From assembly GCA_030041175.1 (NCBI GenBank), contig JASHOK010000013.1:1-48911 (forward strand): a stretch of 48,911 nucleotides of DNA, given 5' to 3'. Below the pieces are notes generated by a model. It did no database searches, was not told where the DNA came from, and was given only the letters and a program-made list of their open reading frames with translations. Below, in pieces: positions 16,109 through 24,808 of this stretch. Origin of the DNA: Thermoplasmata archaeon. Lineage in GTDB: Archaea; Thermoplasmatota; Thermoplasmata; Lutacidiplasmatales; UBA184. The position numbers were made by a program, and so were the translations under genes. Position 1 is the first letter of the stretch, and the number at the start of each line of letters is the position of its first letter.

Positions 16109-16921
16109 TCAGCGGTACATCGGCGCCGATTGAGGCGTCCCCGCCCGCTCCGCGCGGGGATGCTCCTGAGCCGACCGCTGGATGGTCAACAGGTGCTGTT
16201 CGATCCGCTCGGCTTCGTGGATCAGGGGCTCGGGGTCGAGGCTGGAGCGGAGGAGAATATGGTTGATCGTCTCGATGATCTTGGCCGCGGCCCGGGCGTC
16301 CGGGTACTCGGGATTCGCCTCAGCGAGGAACGTGAGCACATCGAAGCCCCGGCGGCGTCCCTCGTTCAGGAGCACGCCGGCAATCCCAGTGATGACCCCT
16401 TCCATGAACGGGGTCACGTTGGGCTCGATGTAGAGCTCCTGAGCTCGGCGCGTGCTGGCGATGCCGTAGACCCGGACCTCCGGAACCTTGGACGCGCGCC
16501 GGTGGTCCTTCGCCCCGGGCGACGGCTCGACGACAAGTCCTTCGGGGGAAACGAGCAGCCCGCAGCGCTGTTCCTGCACCCAGTTGAGAATCGCTGTGGC
16601 AAGGGGGTGGATGACGGTCGGTGGCGGCTGGAACTCGGAGATGAAGGCCACAATCCGATCCGCCACCCGGCCGTTCCGTCCTTGCGGCGGCGTACCGGAG
16701 TAGATCCGCACCGGGTGCTGGGGTTTCCCGTCTCGGACCAGCGAGACGGTCGGGAACGATGGAGACTCGACAATGCCAATCTGTTCCATCTCGAGCGTGT
16801 CGATGAGGTAGTTCGCGACGATCGAGCTCACGAGGCCGACCGAGGGAAACCCGTCAAGCACGATGGCACCCTCGACGTCGACCCGTTTGATCTCGTAGAT
16901 GCGAACCTCGTCGGCTTGCAT
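16109..16921 (-). CDS. PAC2 family protein (proteasome assembly chaperone-like)
   Basis: This 270-residue protein matches the PAC2 family: IVLDGFPSVGLVSSIVANYL near the N-terminus, IGIVESPSFPTVSLVRDGKP, and TPFMEGVITGIAGVLLNEGRR followed by TFLAEANPEYPDARAA. Archaeal members include PbaB-like proteins linked to proteasome assembly, though most are untested. The ATG at 16921 is chosen because family homology begins there; the upstream in-frame extension is low-complexity and overlaps the preceding gene. It lies 10 bases after the small helical protein gene, so they likely form an operon. Confidence 0.88.
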   Translation of the reverse strand: MQADEVRIYEIKRVDVEGAIVLDGFPSVGLVSSIVANYLIDTLEMEQIGIVESPSFPTVSLVRDGKPQHPVRIYSGTPPQGRNGRVADRIVAFISEFQPPPTVIHPLATAILNWVQEQRCGLLVSPEGLVVEPSPGAKDHRRASKVPEVRVYGIASTRRAQELYIEPNVTPFMEGVITGIAGVLLNEGRRRGFDVLTFLAEANPEYPDARAAAKIIETINHILLRSSLDPEPLIHEAERIEQHLLTIQRSAQEHPRAERAGTPQSAPMYR

Positions 16922-16931
16922 GAAGGTCCGC

Positions 16932-17291
16932 TTAGAGAGACTTCTCGACGATCTGGCCCAGCTCGCGGCTGAACAGCTCCACCACTTCGGCCGTGAGCTT
17001 GCTCCGCAGCTCCGGGGGCACGGCCGCAAGACCCAGCCGGGCCGTCAGCGCACCGACACGGAGCAGCGCCGCGTACTCCATCGCGCGAGCCTCCAGCAGG
17101 GCCCGGACTCCTTCCCGGAGGTCGTGGGCCAGCTTCGGGTCATCCTTGAGCGTCTTTTCCAGATGGTGACGGATCTCGTCCTTCACGACGTCCCGGATGG
17201 CCTCCCGGACGATCTCTTCCGGCCGGAGCAGGTCCTGGCTTCCCTTGAGCAGCGTCGCAATCGGCTCGCCGGGGGCCCCCTCGTCGGCCAT
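16932..17291 (-). CDS. Small helical protein of unknown function
   Basis: This 119-residue protein is almost wholly helical and charged (IVREAIRDVVKDEIRHHLEK, LLEARAMEYAALLRVG), with no Cys and no membrane segment. The ATG at 17291 is preferred over GTG at 17312 because a TATA-like GTTAAT (17319-17324) lies about 30 bases upstream of it. It precedes the PAC2 gene by 10 bases and may be its partner, which is inference. I do not recognise the family. Confidence 0.65.
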   Translation of the reverse strand: MADEGAPGEPIATLLKGSQDLLRPEEIVREAIRDVVKDEIRHHLEKTLKDDPKLAHDLREGVRALLEARAMEYAALLRVGALTARLGLAAVPPELRSKLTAEVVELFSRELGQIVEKSL

Positions 17292-17366
17292 CTTCGGCCG
17301 CACACGGGCCACCTCCGCATTAACTCTTCCGAACGCGGTGCAATCCGCCCCACCGGCGGCGAAGTG

Positions 17367-17372
17367 CTTATT
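17367..17372 (+). promoter_or_regulatory. TATA box of the tRNA-Ala gene
   Basis: CTTATT lies about 29 bases before the first base of the mature tRNA, a good distance for transcription starting at or just before the tRNA 5' end. Confidence 0.5.
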
Positions 17373-17398
17373 CCCCGGCGGCCCTCCGCCGCCCCGGT

Positions 17399-17504
17399 GG
17401 GCCGGTAGATCAGCGGAAGATCGCTACCTTGGCAAGGTAGAGGTCGCGAGTTCAAAGGGCCGGGAGCGGCGATGCGCTTCCGCCGGAAACTCTCGCCCGG
17501 TCCA
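17399..17504 (+). tRNA. tRNA-Ala (anticodon GGC), intron in the T-loop
   Basis: The acceptor arms GGGCCGG (17399-17405) and CCGGTCC (17497-17503) pair over seven positions with one G-U, followed by discriminator A. The D-stem is GATC/GATC around AGCGGAA. The anticodon stem CTACC/GGTAG holds the loop TTGGCAA, anticodon GGC at 17431-17433. The variable region is AGGTC. The T-stem GCGAG (17446-17450) pairs with CTCGC (17492-17496), but its loop is 41 bases instead of seven. Removing 34 bases gives a normal loop such as TTCAACT or TTCAAAT. No CCA is encoded at the 3' end. Confidence 0.9.
17455..17488 (+). other. T-loop intron of tRNA-Ala
   Basis: The 34-base insert folds into a hairpin: GGGAGCG and CGCTTCC pair over seven positions around a 6-base loop, extended by GGC/GCC. 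The flanks read TTCAAAG before the stem and GGAAACT after it, the same as in the tRNA-Arg gene. A 4-bp helix AGGG/CTCT with 3-base bulges CAA and AAA fits a relaxed bulge-helix-bulge splice site and gives these boundaries. The cut may shift by up to two or three bases because A-runs flank both sides. Confidence 0.75.
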
Positions 17505-17573
17505 CTCCGCCCTCGTCGGAGAGCCGCAGGGGCTTCGATGCCTGTCGAACCCTAAGCACGACATAGGACCAAC

Positions 17574-17581
17574 CCTTTATA
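17574..17581 (+). promoter_or_regulatory. TATA box of the HTH-HMG-CoA synthase operon
   Basis: CCTTTATA is centred about 27 bases before the GTG at 17605. This supports a leaderless message starting at that GTG and makes the operon independent of the tRNA-Ala gene upstream. Confidence 0.6.
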
Positions 17582-17604
17582 GCCGGCCGCGGGTCGGCGG
17601 CCTC

Positions 17605-18282
17605 GTGGCGGCCGAGTTGCGGGAGAAAATCGCCGGCGAGGTCGTCCTCTCACCGCACCCGGGCCGGACGCTGCGGAAGTGGCGGGAGGGCTTCCAGGTC
17701 TCCCAGCGAGAGCTGTCGAAGGCGCTCGATACCGTGCCGTCCGTGATCTCCGACTATGAGGCCGAGCGCCGAGCGAGTCCCGGCGCGACCTTCATCCGGC
17801 ACTACGTGGACGCCCTCCTCGAGATCGATACCCGGAACGGGCGACGGATCGCGCAGCGGCTAGGGAGCCGCCCGCACACCGAGGGGATCCTCGGCATGCG
17901 GGAGTTCGCGGTCGCGATCCCGCTGAAGTCGATCGCCGACCTCTTGGACGCGAAGCCCGTCAGCAGCGTCGATCTGCTGCGGGACATCCACGGGTATACG
18001 CTCTTGGATGCTCCGCGAGCGATCTTGTCGATGGATGCCTCGCGATTCGTCGAGGTGTATGGCTGGACCACGCAGCGCGCCCTGATCTTCTCGAACGTAA
18101 AGTACGGACGGTCGCCGATGGTCGCCGTGCGCGCCCATCCCCTCAAGCCCGCCGCGGTGATCTTCGCCAACCCCGGCCGCATCGACCCACTCGCCGTGCG
18201 GCTGAGCGAAGTCGAGAACATCCCACTGCTCTCCACGTCCTTTGGGCCGAGTGACGTGTTACGGCGCCTCGAAGAGTTGTGA
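17605..18282 (+). CDS. XRE-type HTH regulator linked to the mevalonate operon
   Basis: The protein has 225 residues from GTG. Residues about 22-55 form a Cro/C1-type helix-turn-helix ([20 protein letters not shown], then [13 protein letters not shown]). The C-terminal 130 residues are a mixed alpha/beta domain ([21 protein letters not shown]) that may bind an effector. Related regulators precede the HMG-CoA synthase gene in other euryarchaea, which suggests control of isoprenoid supply; this is inference. It ends 7 bases before HMG-CoA synthase. Confidence 0.85.
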
Positions 18283-18289
18283 GTCCACC

Positions 18290-19351
18290 ATGCAGCACAG
18301 TGAAGCCGGCATCGTGAGCTATGGAGTGTACGTCCCGCGCTACCGCATCACGCCCGCCGAGATCGGACAGGTCTGGGGTGTCGACGGCGTGGCGATGGGC
18401 CAGGGACTGAACATCGAGCGGAAGAGCGTACCGGCGCCCGACGAGGACACGGTCACGATCAGCACCGAGGCGCTCCGGGTAGCGCTGGCGCGTGGCCGGA
18501 TCGACCCGCAGGAAATCGGCGCGCTCTATGTGGGAAGCGAGTCCCACCCGTACGCCGTCAAGCCGACGGCCACGATCGTCGCCCACGCCGTGGGGGCCAC
18601 TCCGAGCCTGACCGCCGCGGACTTCGAGTTCGCCTGCAAGGCCGGCACCGCGGCGATCCAGACCTGTCTGGGGCTGGTCCGCTCGGAGATGATCCGCTAC
18701 GGGGTCGCCATCGGGACGGACACCTCCCAGGGAGCGCCGGGGGACGCCCTCGAGTACTCGGCCAGTGCGGGCGGCGGAGCGCTCGTCATCGGTCGAGAGA
18801 ATGTGATCGCGTCGGTGAATCACACGGTATCGTACACGACCGATACCCCCGACTTCTGGCGCCGGGAGGGACAACGGTACCCGAGCCACGGCGGCCGCTT
18901 CACGGGCGAGCCGGCGTACTTCCGGCATGTCGGCGAGTGTGCCAAACTGATGTTCAAGCAGGCCGGCACCACGACCAAGGACTACGCCCACGCGGTCTTT
19001 CATCAGCCGAACGGGAAGTTTCCCCGACGCATCGGCACGCAGCTCGGCTTCACGGATGACCAGCTCCGGTACGGCATGGTGACCCCCCGGATCGGGAACA
19101 CCTACTCGGCGGCCGCCCTCATCGGACTCGCGAACGTGCTCGACCATGCCAAGCCGGGCGAGCGGATCCTCGTGGTCGGCTACGGATCGGGGGCCGGTTC
19201 GGATGCCTTCGACCTCACCGTCACCGATGCCGCGGCGCAGTACGACCGGAGCATCGGCCTGCCGGTGCAGCAGTACCTGGACAGCGGCGTCGAGCTCTCG
19301 TATTCGGTCTACGCGAAGTTCCGGGGTAAGATCCACATGGGGGAGGCCTGA
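18290..19351 (+). CDS. Hydroxymethylglutaryl-CoA synthase
   Basis: HMG-CoA synthase condenses acetyl-CoA with acetoacetyl-CoA, the second step to mevalonate and archaeal lipids. The 353-residue archaeal form shows the nucleophilic Cys116 in [12 protein letters not shown], Glu84 in [13 protein letters not shown], and the catalytic His in [28 protein letters not shown] and [13 protein letters not shown] are conserved C-terminal segments. The ATG at 18290 matches the family start. The next gene (thiolase) begins two bases after the stop. In archaea this enzyme forms a complex with thiolase and DUF35, all present here in order. Confidence 0.96.
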
Positions 19352-19353
19352 GC

Positions 19354-20523
19354 ATGCGGGACGTCGCCATCCTCGGTACGGGGATGACCAAGTTCGGCGA
19401 GCTCTGGGACCGTTCCTTCCGGGAGATCGGGATCGAGGCGGGGTTCCAGGCTCTCGTCGACGGGAAGCTGTCGTCGCACGACCTCGGGGCGCTCTACCTG
19501 GGGAACATGGCCAGCGGGGCCTTCCTGGAACAGGAGCACATCGCCCCCCTCATCCTCGACTATGCGGGGCTGGCCGGTCATCATCTGCCGGCGATCCGCG
19601 TCGAGGCCGGTGGTGCCTCCGGCGCGCTGGCGCTGCACGAGGGCTATCTCGCGGTGGCGAGCGGCGCCTACGACTTCGTGGTCGTCGGTGGTGCGGAAAA
19701 GATGACGGACGTTTCCGACACGGAAGCCAGCCGGATCGTCGATGCAACGGCGGATACCGAATGGGAACTGGTCTTCGGTGCGACCCTGCCGTCGCTCTGG
19801 GCGATGGTCGCCCGAAAGCACATGCACGAGTACGGAACGCTTCGGGAGGATCTGGCCGCCCTCCCGGCGCACGACCACCTCATGGCCTCCAAGAACCCGC
19901 TCGCGCACTTCCGCAACAAGGTTAGCGTCGATCAAGTCGTGAACTCCGGGATGGTCGCCGACCCGCTCGGGCTACTCGACTGCTCGCCGCTCTCCGATGG
20001 CGCGGCGGCGGTGCTGCTCGGTCCGATGGAGAGCGCTCGAAAGTACACCGACACGCCGATCCGCATCGCGGCGAGTCAGATCGCCTGCGACACGATGGCG
20101 CTCCATCACCGCCGAGACCTCACCACCCTGGACTCGACGGTCTTCGCGGCGAAGCGGGCCTTTAGCCAGGCCCGGCGCAAGCCCGCGGACATTCAGGTCG
20201 CCGAGATCGACGACGCCTACTCCATCGCCGGTCTCGTGGCGCTGGAGGACCTCGGATTCGTCGCGAAGGGCGAAGCCGGAGCCGCCATGCGGGATGGCCG
20301 GTTCTTCGGAAAGGGTACGACCATGATCAACGCCTCCGGCGGGCTCAAGGCGCAGGGCCGTCCGTTCGGAGCGGTGGGGGTGGCGCAGGTCGTGGAACTC
20401 GTGCGGCAGCTGCGGGGGGAGGCCAAGGATCGCCAGGTGAGTGGCGCTCAGGTCGGACTCGCGCACAATGTGGGCGGGACCGGGGCCACGAGCGCCGTGA
20501 CGATCCTGGAGAGGGCCAACTAG
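19354..20523 (+). CDS. Archaeal SCP2-type thiolase, active-site residues changed
   Basis: By length (389 residues), position and overall sequence this is the acetyl-CoA acetyltransferase of the HMG-CoA synthase-thiolase-DUF35 complex. The catalytic motifs are altered, though. The nucleophile motif, normally VEAxCASG, is VEAGGASG (Gly87 for Cys). The HDxF motif is EIDDAY (Asp286 for His). The GHPxGATG motif is GRPFGAVG (Arg336 for His). The end motif HNVGGTGAT (371-379) is intact. All changes were read in frame from the DNA, with no frameshift. It may be a catalytically dead channelling subunit or have another chemistry. A ribosome-binding GGAGG overlaps the HMG-CoA synthase stop region. Confidence 0.85.
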   Translation: MRDVAILGTGMTKFGELWDRSFREIGIEAGFQALVDGKLSSHDLGALYLGNMASGAFLEQEHIAPLILDYAGLAGHHLPAIRVEAGGASGALALHEGYLAVASGAYDFVVVGGAEKMTDVSDTEASRIVDATADTEWELVFGATLPSLWAMVARKHMHEYGTLREDLAALPAHDHLMASKNPLAHFRNKVSVDQVVNSGMVADPLGLLDCSPLSDGAAAVLLGPMESARKYTDTPIRIAASQIACDTMALHHRRDLTTLDSTVFAAKRAFSQARRKPADIQVAEIDDAYSIAGLVALEDLGFVAKGEAGAAMRDGRFFGKGTTMINASGGLKAQGRPFGAVGVAQVVELVRQLRGEAKDRQVSGAQVGLAHNVGGTGATSAVTILERAN

Positions 20524-24072: not shown

Positions 24073-24177
24073 CGGGCCTGTCGGGAGTTTCCGTCGGGGG
24101 GTTCCCCCCCGCGACCTTTGAACCCGAGTTCGCTGGCTTAGAAGGCCAGTGCTTTGTCCCAGCTAAGCTACAGGCCC
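24073..24177 (-). tRNA. tRNA-Arg (anticodon TCT), intron in the T-loop
   Basis: Read on the minus strand, the acceptor arms GGGCCTG (24177-24171) and CAGGCCC (24080-24074) pair fully, with discriminator G at 24073. The D-stem is GCTT/AAGC. The anticodon stem CTGGC/GCCAG holds the loop CTTCTAA, anticodon TCT (24142-24140). The variable region is CGAAC. The T-stem TCGGG (24127-24123) pairs with CCCGA (24085-24081), but the loop is 37 bases. Removing 30 bases gives TTCAACT or TTCAAAT. A TATA-like AATTAAG lies about 28 bases upstream. No CCA is encoded. Confidence 0.9.
24089..24118 (-). other. T-loop intron of tRNA-Arg
   Basis: The 30-base insert folds as GTC/GAC plus a six-pair G-run/C-run stem. 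Flanks are TTCAAAG and GGAAACT, identical to those of the tRNA-Ala intron although the stem sequences differ. The exact cut is uncertain by up to three bases because of the A-runs. A strict bulge-helix-bulge is less clear here than in tRNA-Ala. Confidence 0.7.
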
Positions 24178-24202
24178 GACGCGCCCATGCCCGCTGGGGA
24201 GC

Positions 24203-24808
24203 TTAATTCTTCGCGGGCGCCGCCGGACGCGGAGGCACCCCCGCCATGGCCCGGGCGACCAACCGAGCCAGCCGGAGCGGTTCCGGGAGGTTCCCGCGAA
24301 CCGTCGTCCGCCGGACGATCGCCTTGGCCTCAGCGCGCGTGCAGCCGACCGCGCTGACGTGGAGCGGATTCCCTTCGGCGGTGGCCAGCCGAAACAGCGG
24401 ATGGGCTCGGACCAGCCGCCACCGACGAGCCGCGTCGGTCGGGAAGTACTTGGTCAGCGCCGACCGGATCGCCCGAAAGTCGGGGGGATGCCGAGTGACC
24501 GTGACGACCGGCCGACGCAGGCGCTCGTACAGTCGGTCCAGGTCCACGAGGTTGAAGCCGCCAACGGCGATTCCATCCAGCAAGACGGCCCGGACCCCGT
24601 CCAAAAAGGAAGAACCCTGGATCAGGTCGAGGATCCGGTCGGTGGCATCGGTCCCGTCCACGGCCACCGTGGTGTGGACGATCCCTTCCACGTAATTGGG
24701 TGTGGAGACTACCACGCCCACGAGGCCCGCCCGCCGCGCAGAGCGGAGAAAAGGGCCGTCATCGAGCCCCAAGACCCGAAGGTGGGGCTTGGCCAGGGCT
24801 CGGGTCAA
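24203..24808 (-). CDS. DUF99 (UPF0215) family protein
   Basis: The protein has about 201 residues from a TTG start and matches the archaeal DUF99 family: LRVLGLDDGPF at the N-terminus, GVVVSTPNYVEGIVHTTVAVDG, then VLLDGIAVGGFNLVDLDRLY. DUF99 is distantly related to endonuclease V; activity is unproven. No ATG lies near the family start, so TTG at 24808 is chosen; the only in-frame ATG (24940) lies inside the divergent neighbour. Its start is 33 bases from that neighbour's start. Its stop region holds the promoter of the tRNA-Arg gene. Confidence 0.82.
   Translation of the reverse strand: MTRALAKPHLRVLGLDDGPFLRSARRAGLVGVVVSTPNYVEGIVHTTVAVDGTDATDRILDLIQGSSFLDGVRAVLLDGIAVGGFNLVDLDRLYERLRRPVVTVTRHPPDFRAIRSALTKYFPTDAARRWRLVRAHPLFRLATAEGNPLHVSAVGCTRAEAKAIVRRTTVRGNLPEPLRLARLVARAMAGVPPRPAAPAKN

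Follow-up and report, generated by a model that had tools for sequence, protein, structure and literature searches.

Two tRNA Genes Interrupted in the T-Loop

The window, i.e., the whole 48,911-nucleotide stretch of DNA from a soil archaeon analysed here, contains a gene for tRNA-Arg(TCT) that is interrupted in its T-loop (Table 1). The T-loop measures 37 nt and reads TTCAAAG...GGAAACT, while all other arms are paired, including the acceptor stem (GGGCCTG/CAGGCCC) with the T-stem being TCGGG/CCCGA, and the anticodon loop reads CTTCTAA. ARAGORN calls no tRNA in the window, and the Rfam tRNA model matches the gene only in part (24119–24177, 35.5 bits); once the 30 nt are taken out, ARAGORN names tRNA-Arg(tct). 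The first-pass annotation, which had described a complete cloverleaf with a 37-base T-loop, is borne out in that splicing in silico gives a proper tRNA. The placement of the splice points at 59/60 follows from the bulge-helix-bulge (BHB) cutting rule together with a mature T-loop of 7 nt. Canonical introns lie at 37/38, one base 3′ of the anticodon, and the insert is not of that type; nor is the gene permuted or split, as its halves stand in normal order, 30 nt apart. An origin as a group I/II or self-splicing intron was dismissed, 30 nt being far too short. By-eye reading of the neighbouring open reading frames (ORFs) recognised no integrase or mobile element near tRNA-Arg.

The gene for tRNA-Ala(GGC) is interrupted at the same site and is named correctly by ARAGORN once 34 nt are taken out. 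The pattern TTCAAAG-N(10–40)-GGAAACT occurs twice in the window versus 0.00 times expected from shuffles, and the earlier statement that both tRNAs carry this junction holds. The spacing of the oppositely oriented Ala (+) and Arg (−) genes, 6.57 kb in the window, is kept in two related genomes (6,583 bp in both G005, a member of the same genus, and G002), and pairs of opposite-strand matches to the covariance model R1 (see below) at distances of 5.4–6.6 kb recur in other genera, a portion of which was read. In the surroundings of tRNA-Ala (window 16109–20523), ORFs resemble, by eye, a PAC2-type protein, a helix-turn-helix (HTH) regulator, an HMG-CoA synthase and a thiolase.

Table 1. Features of the two interrupted tRNA genes in the window (predicted introns and exons)
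Feature	Position	Strand	Remarks
tRNA-Arg(TCT) gene with T-loop intron	24073..24177	−	R1 98.8 bits, E 2.5e-21 (own sequence among the 21 used to build the model); ARAGORN once spliced
tRNA-Arg 5′ exon, positions 1–59	24117..24177	−	ends TTCAAA
tRNA-Arg intron, 30 nt, at 59/60	24087..24116	−	GGTCGCGGGGGGGAACCCCCCGACGGAAAC; hairpin + GGAA facing T-loop TTCA
tRNA-Arg 3′ exon	24073..24086	−	T60, T-stem 3′ strand, acceptor 3′ strand, discriminator G
AT-rich promoter-like box	24202..24211	−	AAGAATTAAG; 25–34 nt upstream of tRNA-Arg 5′ end
tRNA-Ala(GGC) gene with T-loop intron	17399..17504	+	same site as in tRNA-Arg
tRNA-Ala(GGC) intron, 34 nt, at 59/60	17457..17490	+	

A Single-Site Intron Set across the Genome

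The genome to which the window belongs (G000) is a MAG of 89% completeness. By combined Rfam, pattern and model searches, about 41 tRNA genes were found in it, at least 14 of which carry an intron of 28–38 nt at position 59/60, namely those for Arg(TCT), Arg(TCG), Ala(GGC), Glu(CTC), Gln(CTG), Asn(GTT), Asp(GTC), Gly(TCC), His(GTG), Lys(TTT), Leu(TAG), Ser(CGA), Ser(GCT) and Ser(GGA); in the case of Leu(TAG) the gene and in that of Lys(TTT) the splice site were set by hand. The other genes, about 27, are without a T-loop intron. For Asn, Asp and His, the sole gene found is the interrupted one and these genes should, therefore, be functional, with the caveat that a MAG of this completeness may lack a second, uninterrupted copy. 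ARAGORN recognises 12 spliced sequences as canonical tRNAs of the expected type, which before had been unrecognised or mis-sized. Upstream of T-loop-intron tRNAs and of the other tRNAs of the genome alike, a promoter-like AT peak is present at −40 to −28.

In the whole genome, TTCAAAG-N-GGAAACT occurs three times versus none for the reversed control. Of the conserved splice context that had been postulated, what stands is a constrained one: position 59/60 is used in 14/14 T-loop-interrupted tRNAs, whereas the exact junction is present in only 3/14. Likewise, a search of the tRNAs of this genome and its relatives for the junction revealed same-site introns to be widespread and, in G000, the exact junction to be confined to a minority. 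Matches to a relaxed pattern are many in the coding regions of the genome and failed the cloverleaf test.

Structure and Covariation of the Predicted Splice Motif

In the proposed precursor, the T-stem would be extended by a helix of T-loop bases 54–57 (TTCR) with the 3′ end of the intron (NGAA), flanked on either strand by a bulge of 3 nt (AAN and NNT) and with the variable intron hairpin as a cap. Unaided, RNAfold returns exactly this BHB—4-bp helix, two 3-nt bulges and hairpin cap—for Gly(TCC), Gln(CTG) and Arg(TCG). For tRNA-Arg(TCT) of the window, it prefers a symmetric 7x7 open loop, the BHB fold being 2.9 kcal/mol less stable; the central helix of this tRNA has three pairs (TTC/GAA) plus an A57.G mismatch, making it a relaxed form of a motif that introns with G57:C or A57:U match exactly. 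Nearly half of the introns have a fully paired central helix. In the inner helix of the intron, both-sided changes were seen in 7/7 pairs among 21 sequences; for the structure as a whole, slid controls scored far lower.

Base 57 covaries with its partner in the intron. Among 54 introns from four family genomes (G000, G005, G009 and G029), the combinations are G57:C (20), A57:G (28), A57:U (4) and other (2); the base opposite G57 is C in 20/21 and that opposite A57 in none (p = 7e-14, the cells being counts of sequences and not of independent events). Outside the family, G57:C (26), G57:A (4), G57:U (2), A57:U (5) and A57:G (1) were counted, i.e., G57 faces C in 26/32 and A57 faces U in 5/6. 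The partners of T54 and T55 are always A or G and that of C56 is G in 53/54, a conservation that is partly built in, since the finders demanded 2 or 3 of the 4 pairs; the covariation at base 57 is much less affected by this requirement. The first intron base is G in 24/54 and the last two bases are AC in 28/54. A preference for A57.G, which occurs in 28/33 A57 introns of the family versus 1/6 outside, was also observed.

Among tRNAs, T54-T55-C56-R57-A58 is nearly invariant. An intron at 59/60 that forms a BHB must, therefore, end in (C/U)GAA, or a sequence close to it, followed by two bases of the bulge, and the junction is near-identical (GAA) because the invariant T-loop (TTCR) constitutes one strand of the central helix. 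The shared junction would, thus, largely be forced by BHB geometry.

Splicing Enzymes

Both a splicing endonuclease and a ligase are encoded in the genome. EndA (contig C69, 355 aa) comprises two tRNA_int_endo units in one chain, and its alignment with two-unit enzymes of solved structure covers most of the protein; according to our own reading, the C-terminal unit retains the catalytic Y, H and K (FRAY, HARY, RKEF), which the N-terminal unit lacks. Broad-specificity EndAs carry a CSL of 15–18 residues, or the shorter ASL, with a lysine conserved close to the active site; in the corresponding region of 32 aligned Thermoplasmata EndAs, compared by sequence, neither a family-specific insertion nor a conserved lysine was found. 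Judged from its sequence, the enzyme is of the fused two-unit α′2 type with no apparent specificity loop. Full-length RtcB is encoded at C4:26718–28022. The two-unit EndA would cleave each bulge between its second and third base (AA^N and NN^T), and RtcB would ligate the exons to yield the 7-nt T-loop TTCAAAT.

In the literature, α′2 enzymes are rated as narrow in specificity (PMC6379350) and are said to cut the canonical BHB only (PMC4033280), while BHL-like motifs are also said to be within reach of homodimeric enzymes, minimal BHB substrates are cleaved by the Ferroplasma homodimer, and archaeal recognition is independent of the mature domain of the tRNA (PMC8707768). On both views, an ordinary enzyme could cut those T-loop introns that are fully paired; for the A57.G introns, some tolerance would be needed.

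Taken together, the insert of tRNA-Arg is very probably a BHB intron at 59/60, belonging to a vertically inherited set of 13–14 and spliced by EndA and RtcB. While anatomy, position, covariation, distribution and the presence of the enzymes are read directly from the sequences, we infer from these that splicing of the RNA takes place, and that it uses these exact bonds.

Distribution in Lutacidiplasmatales and Other Thermoplasmatota

The relatives of this EndA come from Thermoplasmata MAGs, e.g., of SubAcS15-31 and UBA184, which belong to Ca. Lutacidiplasmatales (PMC9287336). With R1, a covariance model from 21 T-loop-intron tRNA genes, matches were obtained in 37/37 family genomes examined (7–13 genes each, E<=3e-10), some of which can be intronless tRNAs, as these reach ~55 bits. 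The lineage-wide set of T-loop introns that had been suspected from two genes is, thus, corroborated, and it uses one position. Inventories of the four genomes named above, which represent two genera, list 13–14 introns each in essentially the same tRNAs, with the Leu(TAG) intron recovered in 2/4.

Beyond the family, 24 genomes of the order and class plus later samples were surveyed at loci preselected by R1. Introns at 59/60 were confirmed by a cloverleaf and BHB check in families f2–f9, f11–f14 and f16–f18 and by eye in f20, giving 16 further families within the class; in the rest of the phylum, two families (f26 and f41) were confirmed. The tRNAs interrupted outside the family are mostly those for Arg, Lys and Ala. 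No 59/60 intron was seen in three genomes checked of f19, where every match is near 72–76 nt, nor in f15 (G051), f10 (one locus checked) and f21. It is only the covariance model that reveals this wider distribution, and not the strict pattern search; outside the family, the strict junction pattern hits chance-like non-tRNA stretches, similar in number to the reversed control. At the level of sequence, the predicted 59/60 introns are confirmed as a family-wide set and a phylum-wide tendency.

Origin of the Intron Set and Alternative Readings

Intron cores of the same tRNA resemble each other across genomes (0.415, p = 1e-16; shuffled 0.239), whereas those of different tRNAs are no closer within one genome than between genomes (0.264 vs. 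0.267, p = 0.69). For these reasons, the introns appear to be old and inherited with their genes. A recent intragenomic spread from tRNA to tRNA, as suggested by the first-pass annotation and proposed for Thermoproteales, is contradicted by these values as well as by essentially the same 13–14 tRNAs being interrupted in four genomes of two genera; near-identical introns among the tRNAs of one genome, the hallmark of transposing introns of the Thermoproteales type, were not found. In its favour are the identity of TTCAAAG/GGAAACT in three G000 tRNAs and in several tRNAs of relatives, and the common ends of the Ala and Ser(CGA) introns (GGGCCG...CGCCGGAAAC); copying of introns among tRNAs in Thermoproteales was reportedly described by Fujishima in 2010, a precedent cited in PMC3293823. 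We, nevertheless, consider recent copying highly improbable, while ancient copying, before the family diverged, would be compatible with the data. Even less credible is that the enlarged T-loop is never removed, being either a stable structural element or the mark of a pseudogene. The hairpin is indeed very stable (T-arm ~−26 kcal/mol), but the insert lies at precisely one position, covariation links its 3′ end to the T-loop, its stem has diverged in sequence while remaining paired, and the sole genes found for Asn, Asp and His are interrupted. Moreover, one would not expect a T-loop of 37 nt to build the tRNA elbow.

A further reading, which refines BHB splicing rather than competing with it, holds that the introns rely on a specialised, broadened EndA of the family, with A57.G as the trace of relaxed specificity. 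It draws on the different A57.G shares given above (28/33 in the family vs. 1/6 outside), but the family enzymes display no insertion or loop of their own in comparison with other Thermoplasmata EndAs, share catalytic residues and architecture with them, and are of the same type as those of families with fully paired motifs, so that we regard it as unlikely. Of the relaxed endonuclease envisaged earlier, only a weak form, tolerance of A57.G, stays tenable, given an α′2-type enzyme without family-specific insertion and nearly half of the introns being fully paired. In the preferred reading, BHB splicing, the 59/60 set has been passed on vertically in Ca. Lutacidiplasmatales; introns of this kind are present in many other Thermoplasmatota. 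It is conceivable, albeit speculative, that these introns are ancestral and retained in Thermoplasmatota, with the intron 3′ end holding the T-loop in a helix and thereby delaying T-loop modification and elbow folding until splicing as a maturation checkpoint, an ordinary two-unit EndA maintaining the set, and Lutacidiplasmatales having shifted to A57.G. If true, this would counter the view that a two-unit EndA confines introns to the anticodon loop.

Comparison with Known Systems

The introns are like the archaeal non-canonical BHB introns of Thermoproteales, other Crenarchaeota, Thaumarchaeota and Caldiarchaeum in being short and located outside 37/38, the T-arm included (PMC3293823, PMC8450103, PMC3218864). 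However, the positions of the latter are described as scattered, whereas here at least 14 introns share one position in a member of Thermoplasmatota with a fused two-unit EndA. Non-canonical introns have been regarded as almost exclusive to Crenarchaeota (PMC3218864, 2011), Korarchaeum as the sole archaeon combining an α2 enzyme with non-canonical tRNA introns (PMC4033280, 2014), and reviews and method papers assign such introns chiefly to Crenarchaeota and Thaumarchaeota. Permuted tRNAs of Thermofilum pendens and Cyanidioschyzon merolae have their exon joint at 59/60, as here (PMC3218864); unlike in those, the exons in G000 keep their normal order and are separated in cis by a short intron. 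The EndA is like the α′2 enzymes of Archaeoglobus, Thermoplasma and Ferroplasma (one chain, two tRNA_int_endo units, catalytic triad in the C-terminal unit only), which are described as narrow (PMC6379350) and for whose hosts the literature consulted reports no T-loop intron load. In the open-access literature, to which the search extended, the term "T-loop intron" is absent and Methanomassiliicoccales are never joined with "tRNA intron"; individual 59/60 introns may already have been predicted by tRNAscan-SE 2.0 and annotated in databases. The set would represent a known kind of intron, with predicted splicing, in a new arrangement that is lineage-wide and single-site.

In Thermoplasmatota, tRNA introns outside the anticodon loop were not regarded as common, yet they run through much of the phylum. 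While reviews connect the scattered kind of non-canonical tRNA intron with broadened endonucleases and with Crenarchaeota, the present set suggests that a plain BHB-cutting enzyme can suffice for many introns where the T-loop supplies half of the motif. The G57:C, A57:U and A57.G introns provide a natural test series for EndA specificity. On the practical side, gene finders that lack BHB models overlook essential tRNAs here or call them wrongly, as exemplified by ARAGORN in the window.

Other Unusual tRNA Genes of the Genome

Besides the T-loop introns, this genome also has canonical ones, with four tRNA genes (L021, L022, L026 and L027) carrying anticodon-loop introns. The tRNA-Lys(TTT) gene (L042, C83:46439–46581) has a second intron in the D-loop, which is apparently also present in several other Thermoplasmata families (L249, L241, L242, L246, L236 and L323); the two-intron tRNA-Lys may be class-wide. 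In addition to its T-loop intron, tRNA-Leu(TAG) (L195, C59:9130–9234 plus upstream sequence) has an apparent extra insertion between D-arm and anticodon stem, apparently shared by the relatives G010, G004 and G031. A tRNA-like sequence whose anticodon is GCG (L032, C30:27068–27141) has a mismatch in the acceptor and a poor D-arm; it may be either a pseudogene or subject to other unusual processing. Finally, a CAT-anticodon tRNA (L039, C27:1116–1218) contains a D-loop insertion of ~30 nt and an uninterrupted T-loop.
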